NCBI GenBank assembly: GCA_013214705.1
Contig: JABSRZ010000003.1
Span: 527,443-591,442, forward strand
Origin: Hyphomicrobiales bacterium
GTDB taxonomy: Bacteria; Pseudomonadota; Alphaproteobacteria; Rhizobiales; OSC116
DNA length: 64,000 nt
Direction: 5' to 3'
Positions 50,845 to 64,000 of the stretch are shown in pieces; within the stretch, counting starts at the first letter, position 1; each line of letters starts with the position of its first letter. The translations under genes and the position numbers were made by a program. Below the pieces are notes generated by a model. It had not been told where the DNA came from, did not search any database, and was given only the letters and a program-made list of their open reading frames with translations.

Positions 50845-52455
50845 CTATATGATCTGCCCCATCATTTTGCCGCTGTGCTTCCCTTGATCAATTACAATGG
50901 TTCCCGCCATGATGACTTTTTCAATTCCGCGCGAATACTGATGAGGGTTTTCAAAACTTGCCATGTCGATGACAGTATCGGGATTAAAAATGGTTATATC
51001 TGCTATCATGCCCGGCGCAATCGTGCCGCGTGTATCCAAGCCCATAATTTTAGCCGGCATTGATGTCATCTTCTTAATGGCAGTTTCCAAAGTCATTAAC
51101 TTTTCCTCTCTTACATATTTACCAAGTATGCGGGGGAACGCCCCGTAGTATCGTGGGTGCGGGCTGCCTTTAGACAGCTCGCCATATGTTGCCACTGCCC
51201 GTGCATCACTGGAAATGATTGTCTGCGGATGCTGCAGAATCGTCATAATGTCAGTTTCGTCCATGCAAAAAACCAAAGTCTTTACCATGCCTTTTTCTGC
51301 AATTAATAAATCAAATATAAAATCAAAAGGGTCAACTCCACGCTCTTCTGCAATGTCAGCGATACGTCGCCCCATCAAATGCTTGTTTTCTTTTGAGCGA
51401 ATCATCGCGATCTGGACGTTATCCCAAGAGGCGGTATTAAAAGCGTGATCACCAGTTTCGATTTCCGCGTCAATCTCAGCTCGGATCTTTTTGCGCGTGG
51501 ATGGGTCCTGTAATAGCCTCACCAACTCCTCATGACCAGATTTAGTCACCCAAGCTGGAATGTAATCGACAAGTCCTGTCCCCCACGCGGTGTACGGATA
51601 CTGGTCCCACGACAGACGCACGCCCCGCTCCACGGCGTTTTCAAGCAAGTCGAACAATTTTTTTGTCTTACCCCAATTGAATTCCCCACCCAGTTTCAAA
51701 TGTGAAATTTGTAAGCGACAACCTGATTCTTCGGCTGTTTGGATGGCCTCTTCGACGGCAGGGAACAATGTTTGAGCCTCGCTGCGCATGTGTGTGGCAT
51801 ACAATTTGTCCTTACGTGCAACCACTTTGCAAAGTTGAATAAGTTCTTCGGTTTTGGCAAAAGACTCTGGCACATATTCAAGCCCAGTTGATAAGCCAGC
51901 AGCTCCGGCATCCAGGCTTTGTTCAAGCAAATGTTCCATTTCGGCCATCTCTTCAGCGCTCGGCACATCGACTTTATGACCCATCACAGCGGACCTCAAT
52001 GTACCAAAACCAACCAACGGCATCATATTTATTCCCAAAGGGAGTGCGTTCAGATAGTCGATATATTCGCCAAAGGTCTGCCATGAATCTCCCAAAGTCT
52101 CCATAGCCCCAAAATCGGAATTGATTGTCAGATGATCTTTCAAATCAGGCATGAACTTTTGTGTCAGTGGTGCAGCGCTCATACCGCAGTTTCCAACAAC
52201 TTCGGTGGTAACACCTTGCCGAATCTTGCTTTCAGCACGTGGATTTACAATGATGGTTGCATCTGTATGCGAATGGATATCAATAAACCCTGGGCACACA
52301 ATAAGACCACTAGCGTCAATTATTTGTTCGCTTTCCATCTTAAGAACTGGTGCCATATCAACAATTTTCCCATCACTGATAGCAATATCCATTTTTATTG
52401 CTGGCGTTCCTGTTCCATCCACTAACTGTCCATTTTTTATCAGTAAATCTACCAT
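50845..52455 (-). CDS. D-aminoacylase-type amidohydrolase (N-acyl-D-amino-acid deacylase family)
   Basis: The 536-residue enzyme has the amidohydrolase layout: a small beta domain, then PGFIDIHSHTDATI with the metal-binding His61 and His63, TTEVVGNCGMSAAPL, THMRSEAQTLFPAVEEAI, LQISHLKLGG and ISSDARAVATYG near the C-terminus. Relatives remove acyl groups from N-acyl-D-amino acids, or open related cyclic amides. It lies at the distal end of the cluster, 95 bp after the oligopeptide ABC genes, and probably acts on the imported compound. The precise substrate is not readable from sequence. Confidence 0.9.
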   Translation of the reverse strand: MVDLLIKNGQLVDGTGTPAIKMDIAISDGKIVDMAPVLKMESEQIIDASGLIVCPGFIDIHSHTDATIIVNPRAESKIRQGVTTEVVGNCGMSAAPLTQKFMPDLKDHLTINSDFGAMETLGDSWQTFGEYIDYLNALPLGINMMPLVGFGTLRSAVMGHKVDVPSAEEMAEMEHLLEQSLDAGAAGLSTGLEYVPESFAKTEELIQLCKVVARKDKLYATHMRSEAQTLFPAVEEAIQTAEESGCRLQISHLKLGGEFNWGKTKKLFDLLENAVERGVRLSWDQYPYTAWGTGLVDYIPAWVTKSGHEELVRLLQDPSTRKKIRAEIDAEIETGDHAFNTASWDNVQIAMIRSKENKHLMGRRIADIAEERGVDPFDFIFDLLIAEKGMVKTLVFCMDETDIMTILQHPQTIISSDARAVATYGELSKGSPHPRYYGAFPRILGKYVREEKLMTLETAIKKMTSMPAKIMGLDTRGTIAPGMIADITIFNPDTVIDMASFENPHQYSRGIEKVIMAGTIVIDQGKHSGKMMGQII

Positions 52456-52550
52456 ATTATTTCTCCTGGATACAAAGTATATTCATATTTAAAGTGCTAA
52501 AACTTAGGCATAGTTGCAATCATGCATTGACTAATTGCAGCCCACTATAT

Positions 52551-53531
52551 TTAATTTAATGGAAAGTGACATGCTACCTGACCTCCATCTGCCGTGGTCT
52601 CTAATTGCGGCGCCAATTCAGTGCAGGATGGTTTTACGTGCGGGCATCGCGATGCAAAACCGCAACCAGAAGGCAAGTTAAATGGACTAGGCACTTCGCC
52701 TTCTAAAATTTCAATATCGGCAATGTTTCCAGGTGTTGTGGTGAATACATTGTCTATCAATGCCTTCGTATACGGGTGATGCGCTTGAGTGCCGACGTTG
52801 TCTGCGCTAATAATTTCAACGATTCTACCAAGATACATTACCACCACTCGATCGCAAAAATAACTGACTAGGGATAAATCATGAGAAATGAATAGATAGG
52901 TTAAATTTAATTTTTCTCGTAAAGATTCTAATAAATTTATGATTTGGGCTTGCACAGAAACATCAAGCGCGGCTGTTGGCTCATCCAATATTAAAAACTC
53001 GGGGTTTAATGCCAATGCGCGTGCTATATCTGCTCGTTGTTTCTGCCCACCAGATAGCTCATGCGGATAAGAAAAACCATGTTCAGGTGATAGACCAACC
53101 ATTTCGAGCAGTTCATTAACAATTTCATGTCGTTCTTCGCGACTATGTTTGATGCCCCTGATTTCAAAAGGTTCGCTCAAGCTTCTAAAAATAGTGTATC
53201 TTGGGTCCATTACAGAATATGGGTCTTGAAAAACCATCCGCATATTATCCCGTTGAATTTTCATTTTTTGTTTCGACAGCTCAAGAATGTTTTTCCCATC
53301 CACCTCGACACTACCTGTGTTGGCTTCAATGAGCCGCAGCATGAGCCGCGCTAAAGTGGATTTTCCACAGCCGGACTCGCCAACCACCCCTAAAATTTCA
53401 CCTTTTTTTATTGAGAATGAAACATCATTGACGGCTTTCACAACACCTATAGTTCGAAGCAAAAGTCCACCGCTTACTTTAAATGAAACCGAAAGATTTT
53501 TAACCTCAATATAATTTTTGGATATACTCAT
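52551..53531 (-). CDS. oligopeptide/dipeptide ABC transporter ATP-binding protein (OppF/DppF type)
   Basis: The 326-residue ATPase has Walker A GESGCGKST, signature LSGGQKQRADIARALALNP and Walker B ILDEPTAALDVSVQAQ. The C-terminal extension with CGFASRCPHVKPSC is the oligopeptide ABC C-terminal domain with a cysteine cluster. It forms the ATPase pair with the next gene (15 bp away). Confidence 0.94.
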   Translation of the reverse strand: MSISKNYIEVKNLSVSFKVSGGLLLRTIGVVKAVNDVSFSIKKGEILGVVGESGCGKSTLARLMLRLIEANTGSVEVDGKNILELSKQKMKIQRDNMRMVFQDPYSVMDPRYTIFRSLSEPFEIRGIKHSREERHEIVNELLEMVGLSPEHGFSYPHELSGGQKQRADIARALALNPEFLILDEPTAALDVSVQAQIINLLESLREKLNLTYLFISHDLSLVSYFCDRVVVMYLGRIVEIISADNVGTQAHHPYTKALIDNVFTTTPGNIADIEILEGEVPSPFNLPSGCGFASRCPHVKPSCTELAPQLETTADGGQVACHFPLN

Positions 53532-53546
53532 ATCAATGCTCTCCCA

Positions 53547-54524
53547 CTAATGTCTTGGCAAATTAAGGTCAAACTTATTGCAGGTGACTTTTGTGCCACA
53601 GGCTAATTCTATTGTCTCCGGAAATTCCGTTTTACATTGGGGTATTACATAGGGACAGCGGGAACTATAGCGACAGCCTTTTGGGAAATTGCTTGGCGTA
53701 GGAACATTGCCCTCAATGGCTTTAAGCGAGCCCTTTTTCATACCAATATAAGGAATACAGTCCAACAATGCTCGCGTATAGGGATGTTTAGGATCTGAAA
53801 ATACTGTTTTAATATCGCCATGCTCTACCACGTTGCCAGCATACATAACCGCAATTTTATCGCATATTTGGGCAATAACGCCGAGGTCATGAGTTATCAA
53901 TAGCAGGCCAACATTATTTGCGACGGTTAATTCCTTGAACAATCTGATAATCTGGGCTTGAACGGTTACATCCAATGCAGTTGTTGGTTCATCAGCAATA
54001 ATTAATTTAGGTTCTGTACCAATGCCGATGGCAATTACAATTCGTTGTTTTAAACCACCCGAGAGCTGATGCGGATATTGTTCAAAAACTCGTTCAGCGT
54101 TTGGAATTCGCAGCTGCTCCATAAGTTCAATGGCACGTTTTTTTGCCGCCCATTTGGTGATCTTCAAATGTTTAAGCAAGCCTTCGACAATTTGATCGCC
54201 CACTCTATATACAGGGTCAAGTGAGGTCATAGGATTTTGCGGGATGAATGATATTTCGGCGCCACGAATGCTCTGCATGTCTTTGTGAGACTTAGACAAC
54301 AGATCTTTGCCTTCAAATACAATTTGACCAGAAATTTTACCCCCAACCAAAGAGGTTAAACCCATAATTGCATGCGCGGTTAGCGATTTTCCAGATCCAG
54401 TTTCACCAACGACACCTAGCACTTCACCTTTTTGCATTTCAAAGGATATGCCACTAATGGGCCGTATTGTTTTTTTGTCGACAGTAAATTCAACCGCCAA
54501 ATCTGATACTTTAAGCATACTCAC
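53547..54524 (-). CDS. oligopeptide/dipeptide ABC transporter ATP-binding protein (OppD/DppD type)
   Basis: The 325-residue ATPase has Walker A GETGSGKSLTA, signature LSGGLKQRIVIAIGIGTEP and Walker B IIADEPTTALDVTVQAQ, followed by CRYSSRCPYVIPQC at the C-terminus. The FIPQNPMTSLDPVYRVGDQI stretch is a DppD/OppD hallmark. Leucine in the LSGGLKQR signature is a slight departure from LSGGMRQR. It overlaps the OppC-type gene by 4 nt. Confidence 0.94.
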   Translation of the reverse strand: MSMLKVSDLAVEFTVDKKTIRPISGISFEMQKGEVLGVVGETGSGKSLTAHAIMGLTSLVGGKISGQIVFEGKDLLSKSHKDMQSIRGAEISFIPQNPMTSLDPVYRVGDQIVEGLLKHLKITKWAAKKRAIELMEQLRIPNAERVFEQYPHQLSGGLKQRIVIAIGIGTEPKLIIADEPTTALDVTVQAQIIRLFKELTVANNVGLLLITHDLGVIAQICDKIAVMYAGNVVEHGDIKTVFSDPKHPYTRALLDCIPYIGMKKGSLKAIEGNVPTPSNFPKGCRYSSRCPYVIPQCKTEFPETIELACGTKVTCNKFDLNLPRH

Positions 54525-55402
54525 AAGTTTGACTCTCTATTTTTGACATCCATTATATCTACAAGGGCATCACCAAATAAGTTAAATCCCAAAACTGTGA
54601 TCATCATGGCTATTCCGGGAAAAACTATCACCCATGGTGAAATGAATAAATAGGCGGTTCCACTACTCATCATAGCTCCCCAACTCGGTGTTGGTGGCTG
54701 AGCACCCATGCCTAAAAACCCCAGAGTGGCTTCTAAAACTATCGCATTCCCAACGCCAATTGTTGCGGCAACAATCACCGGCGAAATGCTGTTTGGTATC
54801 AGATGTTTGACCAGAATCACAAAATCACTGGCGCCTAAAGACCTGGTCGCTTCAATATACACCGAGGTTTTAAGCGATAAAATCTGGCCTCTTATCAACC
54901 TTGCATATTGTGCCCAATAAGAAAGGCCGATCGCCAACACGACACTTTCCAAGCCAGGGCCAATGATGGCTACCAAAAGCAAGGCAATTAATATAGACGG
55001 CATTGACCACGTTAAGTCGGCAAAACTTGTCAATATAAGGTCTACTTTTCCACCAAAATAACCTGCAAGTCCGCCAACAACTAACCCAATGAGAACGGAC
55101 ATCGCGACCGAAACAACTCCCACCGTAAATGAAATTCTGGCGCCCCTAATAATGCGGCTAAGTAAATCGCGGCCAAATTCATCAGTGCCTAATAAATGAG
55201 TTAGGGACGGTGGCTGGCTCATATTGCTAATATCTTGTAACTTATAAGAATAAGGTTCTAATATATGCGCGAATGCCGCCACAAAAATAAGTATTAGAAT
55301 GACAACAACTCCAGCCAAGCCCATCTTATTTTGTGCCAATCTTTTTAAAAGAACTTTTAAAGGCGACTTATGTTTTTTTGTTTTTTGATAATCAATTGAC
55401 AT
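54521..55402 (-). CDS. oligopeptide/dipeptide ABC transporter permease (OppC/DppC type)
   Basis: The 293-residue permease has an N-terminal cytoplasmic tail of basic residues, a first membrane span at about residues 30-50, the typical LLGTDEFGRDLLSRIIRGAR motif and the EAA-like loop IEATRSLGASDFVILVKHLIPN. Five or six spans are visible. It lies 16 bp after the OppB-type gene. Confidence 0.93.
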   Translation of the reverse strand: MSIDYQKTKKHKSPLKVLLKRLAQNKMGLAGVVVILILIFVAAFAHILEPYSYKLQDISNMSQPPSLTHLLGTDEFGRDLLSRIIRGARISFTVGVVSVAMSVLIGLVVGGLAGYFGGKVDLILTSFADLTWSMPSILIALLLVAIIGPGLESVVLAIGLSYWAQYARLIRGQILSLKTSVYIEATRSLGASDFVILVKHLIPNSISPVIVAATIGVGNAIVLEATLGFLGMGAQPPTPSWGAMMSSGTAYLFISPWVIVFPGIAMMITVLGFNLFGDALVDIMDVKNRESNL

Positions 55403-55418
55403 TGTAAACCCTTAATTT

Positions 55419-56345
55419 TTATTTATATAAATCGCGTACACGAGGGTCAGCATAGGAGTAGATAATATCCGTTATAAATGCCCCTATAATCACCGCCATG
55501 GTCAGAAAGATTAGCGAGGCTTGAACGACGGGGTAATCACGTCTGAAAAGCGCTGTCAATAACATGCTGCCAATTCCCGGTCGGCCAAATACGATTTCAA
55601 TCGACACCGCGCCGCCCAATATAAACCCAAGCCTTAAGCCTAAAATTGTAATTACCGGCATTATGGCGTTTCGGAGTATGTGTTTAATGACAATGGCATT
55701 TTGACTAATGCCTTTGGCGTGGAGCAGCAGGACAAAATCTTGATTATATATTTCGAGCATACTGACCCGGGTGATTCTCGCCACCAAACCCGCACCTCCT
55801 AAGCCGACAGAAATAGCTGGTAATATGAGATACTCGATGCCACCAGAGCCCGAAACGGGTAGCCAAGATAATTCTACAGCAAAAATGAGAATGAGAATAA
55901 GGCCTAGCCAGAAAGCTGGCACCGTTACGCCAAGCAAAGCAATAATCATTGAGATGTAATCAATTATCGTATTCTTTTTAACCGCAGAAATAATTCCTAA
56001 CGTAATTCCAACAAAAAAGGAAATAGCAAGAGATAGAAGGCCCAGCCGCAGTGTGAATGGCATATTATAAAAAATCATATCTGCAACAGGTTGTTTTTCG
56101 ATAATGGATTGCCCCATATCACCCATTACAAAATCTTTTATCCAACGTAGATATTGTATCCACAAAGGCTGATCTAAGCCATAGGCTATCAAAAGAGCGT
56201 CTCTATCATCAAGGGTTGATCCTGGACCTAACAGAGAACTTATTGGGTCGCCGGGTACTAAATGGATTAGAGAAAAAACAACCACAGTAATTACAAAGAA
56301 TATTGGAATTAGTAAAAGCGTTCGTCTAAATATATATAGCCACAT
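55419..56345 (-). CDS. oligopeptide/dipeptide ABC transporter permease (OppB/DppB type)
   Basis: The 308-residue permease has the N-terminal span LLLIPIFFVITVVVFSLIHL, the LVPGDPISSLLGPG motif and the EAA loop around LHAKGISQNAIVIKHILRN. It ends with ITDIIYSYADPRVRDLYK, usual for DppB-type proteins. It is the first gene after the hairpin pair that follows the substrate-binding protein gene. Confidence 0.93.
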   Translation of the reverse strand: MWLYIFRRTLLLIPIFFVITVVVFSLIHLVPGDPISSLLGPGSTLDDRDALLIAYGLDQPLWIQYLRWIKDFVMGDMGQSIIEKQPVADMIFYNMPFTLRLGLLSLAISFFVGITLGIISAVKKNTIIDYISMIIALLGVTVPAFWLGLILILIFAVELSWLPVSGSGGIEYLILPAISVGLGGAGLVARITRVSMLEIYNQDFVLLLHAKGISQNAIVIKHILRNAIMPVITILGLRLGFILGGAVSIEIVFGRPGIGSMLLTALFRRDYPVVQASLIFLTMAVIIGAFITDIIYSYADPRVRDLYK

Positions 56346-56372
56346 GTTGTCCCTCTTTTTTAAAATTCTATG

Positions 56373-56431
56373 AGATCAGAACCTATTAATCTTATCTATT
56401 TGGCAAAGATGAAATTAATAGGTTCTGATCT
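56373..56431. repeat. 18-bp perfect inverted repeat upstream of the OppB-type gene
   Basis: The arms AGATCAGAACCTATTAAT and its exact complement are separated by 23 bp. It lies between the substrate-binding protein gene and the permease genes. It could fold as an RNA hairpin that limits read-through or stabilises the upstream message, or serve as an operator. Confidence 0.6.
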
Positions 56432-56457
56432 AAAATTGATGTTTACATTTGTAATAA

Positions 56458-56504
56458 TCATCACCCATCTAACGTTGTTTATCTACTAATTAGACGGGTG
56501 ATGA
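56458..56504 (-). terminator. Hairpin just after the substrate-binding protein gene
   Basis: The stem TCATCACCC/GGGTGATGA is extended, after one mismatch, by TCTA/TAGA around a 19-nt loop. It starts 22 bp after the stop codon of the minus-strand gene and has only a weak T-rich tail, so partial termination is likely. Confidence 0.6.
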
Positions 56505-56526
56505 CGTGGGGGAATAATGAAATTCC

Positions 56527-58098
56527 TTAGTCTAGTTTCATATCTTGAACTGGAGGTCCTACCAAGATTTTGAACCGTGGTTCAGGCATCGAAACTCTTT
56601 TGTTAATCGCATGAATATTAACAGAGTTTACAATTGGCGCCCAAATAAACTGGCTTAAAAGATATTCGTGATAGTCACGGAAGTTCACAATGCGGTCGTC
56701 TGCATTTTTAGAACGGGTCATGGCTTTTTGCATCAGATAATCTGATTCATTGTCATGCCACATGGCTACGTTAGGGTAACCTAGACGAGCAGAGTTAAAG
56801 AACCACTCTAAGATATCCGCATTATCCCAACCGTATGAGCGCACCACTAAGGCTTGCTTGCCTGTTTTAAATTGAGCACGAATTGAGCTAGGGTCAAATT
56901 GTTCAATAACCACATCGATGCCTAATTCAGCGAGTTGCGCTTGGATAATAACTGATATCTTGCGTTCACTAGATTCGCTTTTACTCCATAAGGTCATTGA
57001 TAATTTTTTGCCATCTTTGGCTAAAATACCATCATCACCTTTAACCCAACCCAAATCAGCCATGATAGTTTTTGCTTTTTCGGTATCTGGATGTATTTCG
57101 AATTCTGCAGCAACTTTACGAGCTGGCAACCTATCAATTAGATAGGTATAAGCAGGTGTACCATTGCCTTGGAATACGGCTTTCAATATGGCGTCTTGGT
57201 TGACTGATAACGCAATAGCTTGGCGGATTTTAACGTCTTTCAAAAACTCATTGGTTGTATTCATAACCATATGGTAATTGCCATTACTAGCCATTGTGAC
57301 TAGATTTGCGTTTGGATCATCTTTGATTTTGTCTAAGAACAGCGTTGGAGCATCTTCAAGAATATCAACACCACCGGTTTTAAATTCTAAAAAGCGGGTT
57401 GAATCTTCCAGAATTTCTCTGAATATCACTTTGTCTATATACGCAGGGCCTTGGTTATCGGAAAGTGCAGAACCCCATTGATAGTCTTCATTTTTTACGA
57501 CTACAATTTCAGCGCCAGATTTCCACGATACAAATTCAAAAGGTCCGGTACCAATAACAACTTTACGGCCAAAATCTTCGCCATACTTTTCGATAGCTTC
57601 CATGCTGGGTACACCAGTGAATGAAGAGGTAAAGTTGTATAGAATGTTAGGATCTGGGCGGCTTAGTGTAATTTCAACGCTTAAATCGTTCAATATTTTA
57701 ATGTCTTCAAACGCGTCGACCATGTATTTGGACTTGCCTGTAGAAAGTTTTTCTAAAAACCATTTCAATACTGTTGAATCTAACTTTGAACCATCATGGA
57801 AAGTTACACCTTCTCTTAGATTGAAGGTAATCATCAGACCATCGTCTGAAACCGTCCAAGATTCTAATAGATGTGGGTAGATGATGCCATCAGCACCCAT
57901 TTCAACCAAACGGTCATACACCATGTAATAGACGTTATTCGTTCTATTGGTGGTGAACGGGTTGAAACTATCTTGTCCCGCATTGCCCGCTGACATCGAC
58001 ATCGTAAGAACAGTTTCGGCCGAGGCTGTTGTTGCCGTCACCCCTATCGGCAAGGCCAAAAGCCCGGCCATTATTGCCATTTTTAGTGTTTTTTTCAT
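56527..58098 (-). CDS. oligopeptide-type ABC transporter substrate-binding protein (family 5)
   Basis: The start was moved to the ATG at 58098 (AGGGAG 6 nt upstream; the tracked start is a TTG). The 523-residue product has a signal peptide (MKKTLKMAIMAGLLALPIGVTATTASA) and the SBP_bac_5 fold: FNPFTTNRTNNVYYMVYDRLVEMG, TFNLREGVTFHDGSKLDSTVLKWFLE split over strand and loop, and GTGPFEFVSWKSG. The DppA/OppA group binds peptides, glutathione, opines or other amide-rich compounds. Expression is likely higher than that of the permeases because of the hairpins after it. Confidence 0.93.
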   Translation of the reverse strand: MKKTLKMAIMAGLLALPIGVTATTASAETVLTMSMSAGNAGQDSFNPFTTNRTNNVYYMVYDRLVEMGADGIIYPHLLESWTVSDDGLMITFNLREGVTFHDGSKLDSTVLKWFLEKLSTGKSKYMVDAFEDIKILNDLSVEITLSRPDPNILYNFTSSFTGVPSMEAIEKYGEDFGRKVVIGTGPFEFVSWKSGAEIVVVKNEDYQWGSALSDNQGPAYIDKVIFREILEDSTRFLEFKTGGVDILEDAPTLFLDKIKDDPNANLVTMASNGNYHMVMNTTNEFLKDVKIRQAIALSVNQDAILKAVFQGNGTPAYTYLIDRLPARKVAAEFEIHPDTEKAKTIMADLGWVKGDDGILAKDGKKLSMTLWSKSESSERKISVIIQAQLAELGIDVVIEQFDPSSIRAQFKTGKQALVVRSYGWDNADILEWFFNSARLGYPNVAMWHDNESDYLMQKAMTRSKNADDRIVNFRDYHEYLLSQFIWAPIVNSVNIHAINKRVSMPEPRFKILVGPPVQDMKLD

Positions 58099-58110
58099 GT
58101 GCTGCTCCCT

Positions 58111-58146
58111 AAGCAAGGTTTATACCATAAGCAAGGTTTATACCAT
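58111..58146. repeat. tandem 18-bp repeat upstream of the substrate-binding protein gene
   Basis: AAGCAAGGTTTATACCAT occurs twice, directly adjoining and identical. It lies 13 bp before the start codon. Read on the minus strand each copy has a TATAAAC that could serve as a -10 element, so the duplication may have doubled a promoter or an operator. Confidence 0.8.
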
Positions 58147-58373
58147 TTTGTTTATATTCAAATTTGTTTCGGTTTTGATTGCCAATGTTTTTTAAATACA
58201 TAACCATTCGCAATGAACTATAATATTTCTTATTTTTATTTTTGGTCAACGCCAATAGTCACGCATTTATCGACAATTTTACCGCATTAGTTAGCTTTTG
58301 CGTATTTTTCACCCTTAAAGCGCATAACTAACGCAAATTCGAGTTTCTGCTGCCCTAGTCTTAACCAGTGAAA

Positions 58374-59516
58374 TCACACCTGCAAATGTGGGTATGCTGA
58401 TTTAGAAAATCTAGCGGGTGAAAAAATAGACACCGAAACACCAATTTTTTTGAGCTCGATAGAAATATTTTCACCTAAAATTAGTGAGCTAGCAATTGAT
58501 GCCACTGCCGGAGCTGTTTGAATTCCATAGCCGCCTTGCCCTGCCAACCAGAAAAACCCATTTTCTGCTGAATCATAACCTATAACAAAGTCTCTATCCG
58601 GTGAAAACACTCGTAACCCAGCCCAACTTGCCTCCACTTTTATCGGCTCTATGTTAAGTATATTGGCAATCTGATCAATCGCCATGGCAACATCCATATC
58701 GTCGGCCCAAGCATCACAAGCAGGTGATGGAATTTCATCTTCGGGAGATAAAAATAGATTGCTCCCTTCTGGCTTACAATACCAATTTTCATCAATGTCA
58801 TTTAGAAAACACATATCTGGGTTGATTGGTTTATCAAATTTCACAACTGCTGCGGTTCGCTTTAATGCCTGTAAGCCAACCGGTTTAATGCCAGCTAGCA
58901 TAGCTATTTCATCAGCCCAAGCCCCTGCTGCGTTTACAACAATTGGCGCTTGATAAGATTCTTTTCCGGATTCAAGAAACCACATTTTGTTTTCATAACG
59001 CAGTGATTTTACTTCTTGGTTACAAAATAATTTTGCCCCATTATGCGCAGCCTGTTTTAAATATCCTTGGTGAAGTGCGGCCACATCAATATCTGAAGCA
59101 TCCGGTTCGGACAGGCCAGCAATAATATGGTCAGTATTTAAATATGGTATTAATACCACCAAATCATCTTGGGATAATCGTTTCAGTGTTGAATTGGATT
59201 TTTCAAAAATTTCCAATTGTTTTAATTGATCCACACGCGCAAGATGAATTATACCGCGTTCGGTTAGCAAGGGAACTTGACTGAACCCATTTGGCGGCTG
59301 CATAAAAAAGTTTTTTGACGCTTTGGTTAAGGCTTGCACGGCGTCTGAGCCATAATTAACAGTGAATAAAGCTGCCGACCTTCCTGTCGTATGATAACCA
59401 GGTTGATCTTCCATTTCCAATATAATAACTTCTTTTGATTTGGATAATATTGAAGCAACGGAGGCGCCTGCAATACCAGCCCCGATTACGATAATGTCGG
59501 CGGTTATCATTGCCAT
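58374..59516 (-). CDS. FAD-dependent amino-acid oxidase/dehydrogenase-like (DAO family)
   Basis: The 380-residue protein has the dinucleotide motif VIGAGIAGASVASIL at the N-terminus, HTTGRSAALFTVNYG, VVNAAGAWADEIA in the middle and a C-terminal FWLAGQGGYGIQTAPA. These place it in the DadA/glycine oxidase/sarcosine oxidase family, which oxidises secondary or D-amino acids to imino acids. In context it probably acts on a D- or N-substituted amino acid freed by the amidohydrolase. It lies 257 bp upstream of the substrate-binding protein gene. Confidence 0.88.
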   Translation of the reverse strand: MAMITADIIVIGAGIAGASVASILSKSKEVIILEMEDQPGYHTTGRSAALFTVNYGSDAVQALTKASKNFFMQPPNGFSQVPLLTERGIIHLARVDQLKQLEIFEKSNSTLKRLSQDDLVVLIPYLNTDHIIAGLSEPDASDIDVAALHQGYLKQAAHNGAKLFCNQEVKSLRYENKMWFLESGKESYQAPIVVNAAGAWADEIAMLAGIKPVGLQALKRTAAVVKFDKPINPDMCFLNDIDENWYCKPEGSNLFLSPEDEIPSPACDAWADDMDVAMAIDQIANILNIEPIKVEASWAGLRVFSPDRDFVIGYDSAENGFFWLAGQGGYGIQTAPAVASIASSLILGENISIELKKIGVSVSIFSPARFSKSAYPHLQV

Positions 59517-59674
59517 TTGCTTTATCTCTCTCTATGCCGCAAGACTCAGTTAATATATGCTGTTCTATAACTGAGGCTTGCGCCTAACTCAATATTTATC
59601 CATTGTCAGATGGAGTATTCCTGTCAATATTTTGGTATATGTAAAAAAATCACATATAACTAGGGTTGCCTAAA

Positions 59675-59995
59675 CTATTCGGATATTTCAATATCCATTA
59701 GTGGCGCATATTGTTGAGCTCCGAAAATATCTGGATCACCCGGGCTGCCGCTAGGTCGATCGCGTAAAATGGTGAATTTTATCGCAAAAGCAGGATCAAA
59801 CTCTTCAAAATCAGTAATTCTGTCTTGGCGCAAACTATAGAGTTTTGAAATGGATGCCCGCGTTATAGATCGGCTTTTTAATACCATTCTGTAATCTTGT
59901 TCGGTTTCAAAAATAATATCAAAGGTAATTTTGTCGACCCCTGCATTTTTACTACGGATTGTTTTGGCTATATCTACAAGTTTTCTGGTGGTCAT
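59675..59995 (-). CDS. DUF4387-family protein (AtuA partner)
   Basis: The 106-residue protein matches the small DUF4387 family: RSKNAGVDKITFDIIFE, then ITDFEEFDP and the C-terminal DPDIFGAQQYAPLMDIEI. The family nearly always lies next to an AtuA/DUF1446 gene, and here it starts 5 bp after that gene ends. The two are probably subunits of one enzyme. The reaction is not established. Confidence 0.87.
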   Translation of the reverse strand: MTTRKLVDIAKTIRSKNAGVDKITFDIIFETEQDYRMVLKSRSITRASISKLYSLRQDRITDFEEFDPAFAIKFTILRDRPSGSPGDPDIFGAQQYAPLMDIEISE

Positions 59996-60000
59996 GGCAA

Positions 60001-61374
60001 TTAAACCCCTGCGCTGATAATTTTGGTTGGAAAAAGCTCTAAACCGTCGCTTACTGACATGGTATGATTAAGTGTCCAAATGCAAGCAGGACTTGCTTTT
60101 AAAACCTCATCGAATACAAATGACACGCCACCCGCGGTGCCTTTTACATTTTCCAAACGAGCATAAAACAACTGTCTCGTTGCGATTAAAGTTAATTCTT
60201 CGGCCATTTCTTCTGTTGGCGCGACCCCTTGAACAATAAGGCATAATTCGTGTGATGGTGTATCTTTTAGTGGTTCAAGTTCACCCATTATTCCGTTGCG
60301 ACCATATACATTATAATGAAGTTCATATCCGTCATCACCGAAACGTTCTTTAACCGCATCCTTAGCCCAATCAATCACTTGGTCTACTTTAGCGATGGTT
60401 TGGGGGTCACGGATGCCCGCAATGCCTACAAAACGATAGCCAAGAAAACCAGAACCTTCTAATTTAACTCGAATTCCTTCAGAGGGGGTAAATTTTGCGC
60501 CCGTAACTCTGGTGGTTTTTTCAGAAATTTGTTTATAATTGCAGTGGGTCATATCTAATAAACCACCTGCAACAAATTCATGGAAAGGGTTTGAGCGTTC
60601 ATACATTGCATGCCCCGCGACGGATGCGACTGTACATCTTTGACCGGGATGCATGGCGGTTACACTAACTGAATCTTGTGTTATTTCCCCTAATACGGTT
60701 TCTTTGCCACCATATGGTTCTGCACAAAATGATGCACATTCAAGTACTTTTCCCAAATAATAGGCCTGACTTTCAGGGAAACCATGATGCAACGCTGCCG
60801 ATGCAAAAATTGCACTGTCACTGCTGCGCCCGCCAATGATGACATCTGCACCTTCTTCAAGAAGTTTTAAAAATGGATGCACTCCGGCCATAGCGACAAT
60901 ATTTTCTGTCGCATCTAGATCTTTTTCTGTCAATGCAGGGCGACCATCTAGCCCGGTGATTTCGTCATCATTTAGAATTTTAGTTCTGATAATCTCTTTG
61001 TCGACTTCTGAATAGAAAAATCCGAGTTTAAATTTTTCAAGTTTATGTTGTTTGGCTATATCAATAATCATGGCTACATATTTATCAACTCGGCTATTTG
61101 TACCTGTATCACCAGCACTACCAATAATCATCGGAACTTTGTTTTTGCGTGCGGCGAGCAACATATGCTCAAGATCGTGACGCTGCCAACTTTCTGGGCT
61201 GGCTGAGGTGTCTGTTCCTAACGGGACTGGACCAATATCATCACTGCCCGAATCTGCAGCGATATAATCCATCCCGGCCTTTACACCCAAATTGAAGCTA
61301 TCGACTTTCAGTGGTGCGAATCCTAGATGCCCATTTGGACAGATTATTCTGAGTGTTTCCATTGTTTTTCTCAT
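60001..61374 (-). CDS. AtuA/DUF1446-family acyclic terpene utilisation-like protein
   Basis: The 457-residue protein matches the AtuA family, named for acyclic terpene utilisation in Pseudomonas but much more widespread. Seen are YIAADSGSDDIGPVPLG, LLAARKNKVPMIIGSAGDTG, GADVIIGGRSSDSAIFA and RPGQRCTVAS-like MHPGQRCTVASVAGHAMYE. In Pseudomonas, AtuA has no clear enzymatic role. With DUF4387 it may act on an acidic intermediate. No other atu genes (AtuC/F carboxylase) are near, so terpene use is unlikely. The start may be the ATG at 61362 (METLRII); neither has a strong ribosome site. Confidence 0.88.
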   Translation of the reverse strand: MRKTMETLRIICPNGHLGFAPLKVDSFNLGVKAGMDYIAADSGSDDIGPVPLGTDTSASPESWQRHDLEHMLLAARKNKVPMIIGSAGDTGTNSRVDKYVAMIIDIAKQHKLEKFKLGFFYSEVDKEIIRTKILNDDEITGLDGRPALTEKDLDATENIVAMAGVHPFLKLLEEGADVIIGGRSSDSAIFASAALHHGFPESQAYYLGKVLECASFCAEPYGGKETVLGEITQDSVSVTAMHPGQRCTVASVAGHAMYERSNPFHEFVAGGLLDMTHCNYKQISEKTTRVTGAKFTPSEGIRVKLEGSGFLGYRFVGIAGIRDPQTIAKVDQVIDWAKDAVKERFGDDGYELHYNVYGRNGIMGELEPLKDTPSHELCLIVQGVAPTEEMAEELTLIATRQLFYARLENVKGTAGGVSFVFDEVLKASPACIWTLNHTMSVSDGLELFPTKIISAGV

Positions 61375-61425
61375 TCTTCGAAATTGACGGTTTAACGGCA
61401 GCCACTATTAATTAGTTTGGCGTAT

Positions 61426-61454
61426 CGAGATTGTATTTTGTTTCCCCAATCTCG
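61426..61454. promoter_or_regulatory. 8-bp inverted repeat upstream of the AtuA-like gene
   Basis: The arms CGAGATTG and CAATCTCG are 13 bp apart, in the gap between the regulator gene and the AtuA-like gene. It could be the binding site of the Fis-type HTH regulator encoded next to it, or an RNA hairpin. No sigma-54 promoter (TGGC-N8-TGC type) was found in this gap by eye. Confidence 0.45.
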
Positions 61455-61538
61455 GTCAATGAGTGAGATTTTTTCTTTTACTAATGATAATGAAGTGGTA
61501 TTAGCAACTTGAGCGTAGATTGCTCATCTTGCGCGCAT

Positions 61539-62519
61539 TTAACGCATATGTAGCTTGTTCATTTGATGACGCAATGCATGTCGAGACAGTCCAAGCAAGT
61601 CCGCGGCTTGTGATAATTTGCCGTTTTTAAGAGATAAAGCGTTTTGAATAATTTTCACCTGAAATTCACTGGTCGCGTCTTGAAACGATTTATTGACGCC
61701 AATAATCTCAGTAAGGGAATTTGAGTGGGTTAAACTTGCACCGCTTTCAAGTTCACGCATAATTCTCGGTGGAATATGCTTCACCAAAATCTGATCGTCG
61801 GTTTCTAAAACAAAAATTCTTTCCAAAAGGTTTTCGAGTTCACGCACATTTCCAGGCCAGTGATAGGCTCTAAAAATTTCTGATATACTGGGTTCCCAGC
61901 CTTTAACCGTCCGTCCATATCTGCGGTTAAACTCCTTAATGAAATATTCTGCTAGGATGAGGCTATCATCACCTCGTTCGCGTAATGGTGGGATGTTAAT
62001 AGAAACCACCTGTAGTCGAAAATATAGGTCATTTCTAAATTTACCAGCTTTAACTTCTTTAAATAGGATTCTGTTGGTGGCGCATATGAAGCGAATATCC
62101 ACTTCAACATCTCTTACAGATCCAATACGCCTGAATCTTCTCCTATCTAACAATCCCAATAATTTAGTTTGCGATAGATGGTTTAATTCCGGAACTTCAT
62201 CTAAAAATAATGTACCGCCGTTTGCTGCATTAATAAGCCCATTATTGCGTAATAAAACGTTAGAAAGCTTGCCTCTTTCTTGACCAAAAAATTCTTGGTC
62301 AAACAGATCGACAGGAATAGATGCACAATTTACATCAATAAATGGTTTTTGTGAGCGAACTGATTGTTGATGTAATTTTTCGGCAATCAAGCCTTTTCCT
62401 GTACCAGTCTCACCATATATTAATACCGCCAACGCCTTGCTGCGGGCAACGCGTTGAACCATTTTCTTAACTTCTAAGATCGCGGTTGAATCACCGATAA
62501 TTTCGTGGGAATACATCAT
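61539..62519 (-). CDS. NtrC-type AAA+ regulator with degenerate GAFTGA and no sensor domain
   Basis: The 326-residue protein is an AAA+ domain followed by a Fis-type HTH. Walker A is GETGTGKG (36-43), Walker B GGTLFLDEV (101-109), the arginine finger region RNDLYFRLQ is intact and the HTH is KLSQAADLLGLSRHALRHQM. The GAFTGA loop, which normally contacts sigma-54, reads GKLSNV (83-88). It has no N-terminal receiver, PAS or GAF domain. Loss of GAFTGA suggests it does not work with sigma-54; Rhodobacter capsulatus NtrC is a precedent for such a protein acting with sigma-70. It probably controls this cluster. Confidence 0.9.
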   Translation of the reverse strand: MMYSHEIIGDSTAILEVKKMVQRVARSKALAVLIYGETGTGKGLIAEKLHQQSVRSQKPFIDVNCASIPVDLFDQEFFGQERGKLSNVLLRNNGLINAANGGTLFLDEVPELNHLSQTKLLGLLDRRRFRRIGSVRDVEVDIRFICATNRILFKEVKAGKFRNDLYFRLQVVSINIPPLRERGDDSLILAEYFIKEFNRRYGRTVKGWEPSISEIFRAYHWPGNVRELENLLERIFVLETDDQILVKHIPPRIMRELESGASLTHSNSLTEIIGVNKSFQDATSEFQVKIIQNALSLKNGKLSQAADLLGLSRHALRHQMNKLHMR

Positions 62520-62583
62520 ATTTTTTAAACACCAGTTAATTGGCTATTAATATCATACTTATTAGTTGAATCATTCTCCAAAC

Positions 62584-63645
62584 TCAAAATTTATATATTT
62601 CCCATTTGTTTGAGCAAGGATTTCCAGTGCAAAATTGTAATTTCTGATCGGCGCAAAAATAAATCGCAGATGAAATAGTGTGCCCCTCACCCACCGCGCC
62701 GTGGCAACATATAGATTCTGAGTTTTCACCGTGCGAGGCCATTAAATTAATGATATTATTGGCAATAAACGGTTGCTCACTAGCAGATAACACTTTATGC
62801 ACTTTGTTCATACGCCCACTAGAACTTTCAAAATATCCTTGTTCAGTTTCTGCACTTTGAAATGGAATGAGGTTTGGGTCAATGTAATGATTTGTGTGAG
62901 ACAAATAACCCGTATCGGCGCGCTTAATCGCTAATTCTGATTGACCAAGTTCGATGGTTGCAATATTACCAGTTTTATCGGCCAAACCAAGAGTTCCACC
63001 GCCTATATGTTGAACAGATGATAGAATTTCAATGGCATCATCTACAGTTTTTGCTTTCCACAAAATTTCGCTCATCAGAAAATACCGCAACCACCCCACG
63101 TTGGGCTTAGAGTAGCCCACATGGGTATCGGCGACTGCCAAACCATATTTATTCATACCACTTGAATACGCTCCTGGGCTACCAAGGCTGGTCACAAACA
63201 GACACTCATTGTCAGTATATTTGGGGTCTCTATGCAGCACAACTTGCTGTATTTTTAAGTGTGAAGTGCCAAAATCTCGATTTTTTGCTAAAATCGGACC
63301 TGAATCGCTATTGCTGACGGCAATAATTGTACAACCATCGTTGTTTTTACTCGCCGCATCTATGGCACTTACATGCAGATATGTAAAAAGATCGTGCGGT
63401 GAAATTCCATAGCCTTCTGCCAAACCATGTAATTCTTCCAAATGGTCATTTGCATGTTTTTCGGTGAATTTCCATTGAGCGTCAATAAAATTTTTGGCTT
63501 CAGAACTTGTTATACTGTCTTTAGCGTCTTCTAGACGTAGTTTGACAGCATCCTGAACCTGTTGATTAAGTTCGGGGCGAGCGTTTGACTGAGCCAATCC
63601 TCTTTGTCTTGAATCGCCATTGAGTATAATTAAATTTGATTTCAT
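62584..63645 (-). CDS. C45-family Ntn hydrolase (isopenicillin N acyltransferase-like)
   Basis: The 353-residue protein belongs to the peptidase C45 / acyl-CoA:6-aminopenicillanate acyltransferase family. Such proteins cleave themselves before a cysteine, which then becomes the nucleophile; here it is Cys105 in NNDGCTIIAV. AKNRDF follows at the expected distance, with TSLGSPGAYSSGMNKYGLAV. Bacterial members hydrolyse or form amide bonds in N-acyl-amino acids or similar compounds. It is translationally coupled (ATGA overlap) with the ornithine cyclodeaminase-like gene. Confidence 0.9.
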   Translation of the reverse strand: MKSNLIILNGDSRQRGLAQSNARPELNQQVQDAVKLRLEDAKDSITSSEAKNFIDAQWKFTEKHANDHLEELHGLAEGYGISPHDLFTYLHVSAIDAASKNNDGCTIIAVSNSDSGPILAKNRDFGTSHLKIQQVVLHRDPKYTDNECLFVTSLGSPGAYSSGMNKYGLAVADTHVGYSKPNVGWLRYFLMSEILWKAKTVDDAIEILSSVQHIGGGTLGLADKTGNIATIELGQSELAIKRADTGYLSHTNHYIDPNLIPFQSAETEQGYFESSSGRMNKVHKVLSASEQPFIANNIINLMASHGENSESICCHGAVGEGHTISSAIYFCADQKLQFCTGNPCSNKWEIYKF

Positions 63646-64000
63646 AATTCATATGCCAATTTTGCAGCCGCTAAATCTTCCAAGGCCGCGCCTACAGATT
63701 TAAACATTGTGATTTGATGATCATTCGACCTACCCGAATGTTGGCCAAGGCACAATTGTTTAAGATCTGCCAAGATATGAGTTTTGTCAATTAAACCTGA
63801 TTCTATTGGAAACAACACATCACCACCTTCCGCTAGGGCGCCTTCTCGTGTGTCCACAAAGAGAGCTGATATCTTCACCGCTTCATCATCACTTTCTCGC
63901 ATATTTGGTTTAAAAGCGCCAACCAAGTCAATATGAGTGCCTGCTTTCAACCACTCCCCCAAAACTATTGGTTGTTGGGACAGCGTGCAACAACTAATTA
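63642..64000 (-). CDS. ornithine cyclodeaminase/mu-crystallin-family protein, partial (N-terminus off right edge)
   Basis: The tracked ORF begins at a TTG (63962), but the frame stays open to the window end (TLSQQPIVLGEWLKAG and so on), so this is the C-terminal part of a longer gene. GEWLKAGTHIDLVGAFKPNMRE, then SALFVDTREGALAEGGD and TMFKSVGAALEDLAAAKLAYE, are conserved in the family. Members include ornithine cyclodeaminase, alanine dehydrogenase and ketimine reductases, which interconvert imino and amino acids. The Rossmann part is outside the window. Confidence 0.88.
   Translation of the reverse strand, partial: ISCCTLSQQPIVLGEWLKAGTHIDLVGAFKPNMRESDDEAVKISALFVDTREGALAEGGDVLFPIESGLIDKTHILADLKQLCLGQHSGRSNDHQITMFKSVGAALEDLAAAKLAYEL

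Follow-up and report, generated by a model that had tools for sequence, protein, structure and literature searches.

The window, by which we mean the whole stretch of 64,000 nucleotides that was analysed, carries on its minus strand (50845-63962) all of the genes named in the original prediction, each of them open and each matching its own family well above threshold, which bears out the one-strand inventory given there. At the distal end lies a D-aminoacylase-type amidohydrolase of 536 residues (50845-52455, PF07969), adjoined by an importer consisting of OppF-type (52551-53531) and OppD-type (53547-54524) ATPases (both PF00005 and PF08352), OppC-type (54521-55402; PF00528, PF12911) and OppB-type (55419-56345; PF00528, PF19300) permeases and a family 5 solute-binding protein (56527-58116; PF00496, E 9e-77), for which the ATG at 58098 is the likelier start. 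Next come a DauA-like FAD-dependent D-amino acid dehydrogenase (58374-59516; PF01266), the DUF4387 protein (59675-59995; PF14330, E 1.1e-34), AtuA (60001-61374; PF07287), a regulator of the enhancer-binding-protein type (61539-62519; PF00158, PF25601, PF02954) and a C45 Ntn hydrolase/acyltransferase (62584-63645), while the window edge cuts an OCD-family gene and leaves its 3' part (63642-64000). The original prediction knew of no described pathway with this gene set, and none was found in our literature search.

Two of the encoded enzymes belong to amide-cleaving families. The C45 protein scores 165 bits against NF040521 (cut-off 85) and positions its Cys nucleophile directly after Gly at the predicted self-cleavage site (Gly104-Cys105), an arrangement invariant in 49/49 sequences. 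Its structure model (pLDDT 89) has the Ntn fold, the top PDB match being isopenicillin N acyltransferase (C45 family, PDB 2x1c; TM about 0.8). The fold and the self-cleaving Gly-Cys are shared with that enzyme, whereas identity in the structural match is only 15% and the window offers no beta-lactam context. The amidohydrolase is equally near to N-acyl-D-Glu deacylase (PDB 3gip, E 1.7e-81) and to D-aminoacylase (PDB 1m7j), and falls below the cut-off of the D-aminoacylase subfamily NF006560 (209 vs 340 bits). In the alignment the HxH motif, the metal Cys, two His and the catalytic Asp are kept, and a 60-residue insert is present. The structure model of the binding protein is poor (pLDDT 65), so no ligand was read from it.

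The oxidase is nearest to DauA (PDB 3nyc, E 1.3e-78), to which it is homologous over the whole length, and it retains Arg222, Arg305, Tyr53, Tyr249 and Gln336, the first four of which we take to be the carboxylate-binding residues of DauA. The side-chain ligand Glu87, presumably the acidic residue that binds guanidinium and other cationic side chains, is replaced by Ile (Ile89 of the window protein), and Leu stands at the position of His48. The OCD gene, whole in L002 (85-1017, 310 residues), shares 4 bases with the start of the C45 gene, scores 421 bits against the pyrroline/piperideine-2-carboxylate reductase equivalog NF004793 (cut-off 322) and matches PDB 7rbp and 6t3e. DauA and DauB of Pseudomonas aeruginosa, which convert D-Arg to L-Arg, likewise combine an FAD D-amino acid dehydrogenase with a mu-crystallin/OCD-family reductase in one cluster, DauB being the OCD-family protein. 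The window differs in having Ile where Glu87 of DauA holds guanidinium, in an OCD of the pyrroline/piperideine-2-carboxylate reductase type and in the absence of the OCD from sister loci.

When named genomes were scanned with the AtuA clade, 183 relatives emerged, the best 80 of which were kept as loci. AtuA and DUF4387 stand side by side on one strand in 80/80 of these best 80 of 183; since the loci were sampled by an AtuA search, the pairing is not an independent result. The order C45-regulator-AtuA-DUF4387 recurs in 48 of the best 80 of 183, far beyond chance, with Opp directly before C45 in 44 of those 48 and complete from the binding protein on in 36. The amidohydrolase and the oxidase accompany this core in only 3 of the best 80 of 183 (L012-L014; 58-87% identity, the amidohydrolase copies 86-87%), where they lie 34-45 bases behind DUF4387 in the same operon; the amidohydrolase is placed differently there and in the window. 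The window-type OCD was found in 0 of the best 80 of 183, the one partial OCD-like match (68 bits) being at L045; at L012-L014, where it was also not found, the sequence upstream of C45 is in part short. Of the gene order put forward for comparison in the original prediction, the core thus stands and the whole set does not. Opp-C45-regulator-AtuA-DUF4387 is therefore the unit that is conserved, to which one small clade has added the D-amino acid part. This clade also uses a different importer from that of the other loci, its binding protein being 78% identical to that of L013 and 21-26% identical to those of the canonical loci. The AtuA/DUF4387 lyase family, otherwise annotated as serving terpene use or as of unknown function, hereby gains a concrete and widely conserved gene context. 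Closer to the window, five genomes of the same genus yielded no DUF4387, and AtuA above about 60% identity occurs in only 5/385 genomes of the class, its own genome included. At L012 the window-type cluster has an IS110-type transposase gene (439-1533) on its upstream side.

The original prediction was right that DUF4387 and AtuA are present; their assignment is corrected here. In PDB 9erq, chain A is matched by AtuA (E 1.1e-79) and chain B by DUF4387 (E 7.7e-23), with 9evf also matching, and the former entry was deposited as the citramalate lyase subunits CmlA and CmlB, a naming that is the depositors' own. Searches of the literature for DUF4387 and for CmlAB found no paper, so the function of the pair rests on those names, and no more than a single pair of the family seems to have been solved. 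Both window subunits are homologous to CmlAB over nearly their whole length and are encoded by adjacent genes, and alignment of AtuA with CmlA reveals glycine-rich and acidic motifs common to both throughout. The pair is therefore best viewed as a predicted two-subunit enzyme of the citramalate-lyase type and not as a protein of unknown function. Unlike CmlAB, its neighbours are an importer and amidases and not methylaspartate pathway genes, and because the large subunit is only roughly a third identical to CmlA it may cleave an acid other than citramalate. In enterobacterial glutamate clusters a DUF1446 gene of unknown function follows mal, and the fate of citramalate was left open in that 2015 study (PMC4682846).

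The best clue to the substrate of the lyase is a minimal Burkholderiales operon (16 loci) comprising AtuA-DUF4387 and a TctC-type receptor only, the usual unit also including the regulator. Such an arrangement suggests that the lyase acts on a small free carboxylate and that the products would enter central metabolism directly, needing no further dedicated enzyme. At L045 (2757-11700) two distinct AtuA/DUF4387 pairs, whose AtuA proteins share 47% and 71% identity with that of the window, flank a single Opp operon on either side, which suggests that a single imported compound is served by two lyases. At L010 (13971-15703) a plasmid-borne AtuA/DUF4387 copy has no regulator and no sigma-54 promoter upstream, and sits beside an iron-type ABC importer.

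The existence of a dedicated regulator, also part of the original prediction, is upheld; the loss of its sigma-54 contact motif had been overlooked. The protein consists of AAA+ and Fis-type HTH domains only, with no N-terminal sensor. Walker A, Walker B and the arginine-finger region are intact, and GKLSNV stands in place of the GAFTGA loop. Changed loops are also present at L013 (GTISSA), L053 (GTLAGA) and L012 (GTFTGA, close to the functional motif). Where the regulator carries GAFTGA or GSFTGA, a -24/-12 site lies no more than 150 bases upstream of atuA in 73/73 loci, as against 0/4 among the changed-loop loci (the window, L012, L013 and L053). In the tree the four changed-loop regulators group as a single clade with SH-aLRT 100, which sits on a long branch nested among the sigma-54 loci, so that they count as one evolutionary event and not four. 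At L014 just the last ten codons of the regulator gene (1140-1169) are left, with operator, promoter-like element and enzyme genes still present. TyrR, DhaR and HupR are known to have lost GAFTGA and to depend on sigma-70 (PMC3162934). The window regulator resembles them in being an AAA+ protein that descends from sigma-54 activators and whose contact loop is broken, but differs in lacking an N-terminal sensor domain and in having intact-loop orthologues with sigma-54 promoters available for direct comparison. The orthologous loci, some of the sigma-54 type and some sigma-70-like, thus provide a natural series in which a change of sigma factor can be tested stepwise.

Operator sites were sought with a matrix (consensus nGCGTGnAnTnCACGCn) trained upstream of atuA in 61 other loci. 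Over 31.6 kb of the window's own locus the top site, at 19.6 bits, is the putative operator TGCGTTAAATGCGCGCA upstream of atuA (61530-61546, minus strand), and the next best, at 8.1 bits (58319-58335), lies upstream of the binding-protein gene, where together with a site of 5.6 bits (58299-58315) it makes up a pair of weak putative operators (58299-58335, minus strand). Upstream of the binding-protein gene, strong operator sites and a sigma-54-type promoter are each present in 36/45 loci, so that the ancestral regulon probably included both operons.

In place of the -24/-12 sites the window has two minus-strand elements of sigma-70-like form. TTGACC-N18-TACAAT upstream of atuA (61430-61459) is identical in L012 and L014 and weaker in L013 and L053, and TTGACC-N18-TATTAT upstream of the binding-protein gene (58220-58249) has a counterpart at L013 (14700); at L053 neither operator nor element was found upstream of the latter gene. 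The pattern TTGACC-N18-TANNAT occurs six times in the five loci, against 0.16 expected, always on the transcribed strand; five of these sites are upstream of atuA or the binding-protein gene and one is beyond the oxidase gene at a contig end. None was found upstream of atuA in 80 other loci tested. Across the window's own genome the pattern is not enriched (11 vs 7 in the control), so a promoter role is proposed from position and conservation. Just before the binding-protein start (58110-58146, minus strand) is a tandem 18-base repeat, ATGGTATAAACCTTGCTT, whose copies resemble -24/-12 sites; the two tandem TGGTATAAACCTTGCT copies upstream of this gene score 13.5 and leave only about 14-32 bases between their ends and the ATG. 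The regulator, of sigma-54-activator descent and with its putative operator kept at both operons, most likely now acts at sigma-70-type promoters, and the comparison of loci looks like the rewiring of a regulon from sigma-54 to sigma-70 in a single evolutionary event.

The enzyme families, together with the operator at both operons, support the catabolic cluster of the original prediction, with its importer, two amide-cleaving families, D-amino-acid-type oxidase, imine reductase and dedicated regulator. With slightly better than even confidence, we read it as a catabolic regulon of two operons that serves a small amide-linked molecule; its steps are suggested by families and context. The Opp-type ABC importer would take up an N-acyl amino acid or similar amide, whose amide bonds would be cut by the C45 Ntn hydrolase and the D-aminoacylase-type amidohydrolase. 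The D-amino acid released, which is probably uncharged, would be oxidised by the DauA-like flavoenzyme to an imino or oxo acid, the OCD would, in this genome, reduce a cyclic imine, and the AtuA/DUF4387 lyase would split the freed hydroxy acid into central metabolites. The regulator would act at both operons, most likely on sigma-70-type promoters. More tentatively, and at somewhat less than even confidence, the observations can be joined into a fuller account in which a local regulon switched from sigma-54 to sigma-70, keeping its operators, losing the activator loop and replacing the -24/-12 sites of both operons with TTGACC-N18-TANNAT, and acquired both a D-amino acid module and a new importer, the substrate being an undescribed amide, the acid part of which the citramalate-lyase-type enzyme would cleave.

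Extension to the right, which the original prediction had proposed, revealed etfA, etfB, a CoA-transferase, an acyl-CoA dehydrogenase and a divergent LysR gene beyond the OCD, that is, a glutarate operon. The CoA-transferase is closest to succinate-glutarate CoA-transferase. The arrangement is like that of the gcdHG glutarate operon with its LysR regulator GcdR (PMC6667623), with the difference that the flank here is native to the genus and probably outside the cluster. Glutarate genes are present in the genus without the cluster (dehydrogenase 91% identical in G002) and are therefore probably native neighbours. In four Rhodobacteraceae loci homologues of the glutarate-type CoA-transferase and dehydrogenase directly follow DUF4387, making a link of the cluster to C5 diacids possible. 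A second glutaryl-CoA dehydrogenase-like gene, 70% identical to the cluster-side one, is present elsewhere in the window's own genome (contig C5, 1729-2907).

This flank bears on an alternative that we consider unlikely, in which all genes act in a single pathway for conjugates of the D-lysine or D-ornithine type: the D-aminoacylase would release the amino acid, the oxidase form a cyclic imine and the OCD reduce it to L-pipecolate or L-proline, leading into the glutarate genes. The OCD score above the reductase cut-off is consistent with such a route, as are the glutarate-type genes adjoining the OCD and those behind DUF4387 in the four Rhodobacteraceae loci. However, the oxidase is without the acidic residue for cationic side chains (given the role we assume for Glu87), the genus has the glutarate genes without the cluster, the OCD was not found at L012-L014 in their partly short stretches upstream of C45, and the lyase would be left without a role. 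Somewhat less probable again are two unrelated adjacent units, Opp-C45-lyase and an N-acyl-D-amino acid unit (amidohydrolase and oxidase), sharing only the regulator. The rarity of the D-amino acid genes (3/80 vs 48/80 for the core, best 80 of 183) and the differing position of the amidohydrolase in the window and in L012-L014 would suit such a division, but in L012-L014 both genes lie within 34-45 bases of DUF4387 in the same operon, and operator and promoter element are common to both window operons. That AtuA/DUF4387 is another enzyme of the same superfamily and no lyase, which would make the acid part of the scheme wrong, could be argued from its structural precedent, which appears to be the only one, is named by its depositors and yielded no paper in our search, but is improbable given the glycine-rich and acidic motifs common along the whole length.

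Returning to the regulon for an amide-linked molecule, several specific substrates were considered. The opines and lactams of the original prediction are unsupported. Carboxylate siderophores containing D-ornithine would fit a lyase with D-amino acid enzymes, and were rejected on the absence of a siderophore receptor among the neighbours and of an acidic pocket residue in the oxidase. Beta-lactams with a D-aminoadipyl side chain, suggested by the oxidase, the Ntn hydrolase and the glutarate genes, were set aside since the resemblance is one of family only and members of the genus that lack the cluster also have the glutarate genes. PADLOC gave no meaningful match for a defence function.

The window's own genome has one rpoN, located elsewhere. 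In 21 loci (between L015 and L075, at positions of about 0.3-2.2 kb), nearly all from Rhodobacteraceae, an rpoN gene directly precedes the binding-protein gene, two of these having been confirmed by Pfam, and forms a cluster-linked sigma factor.
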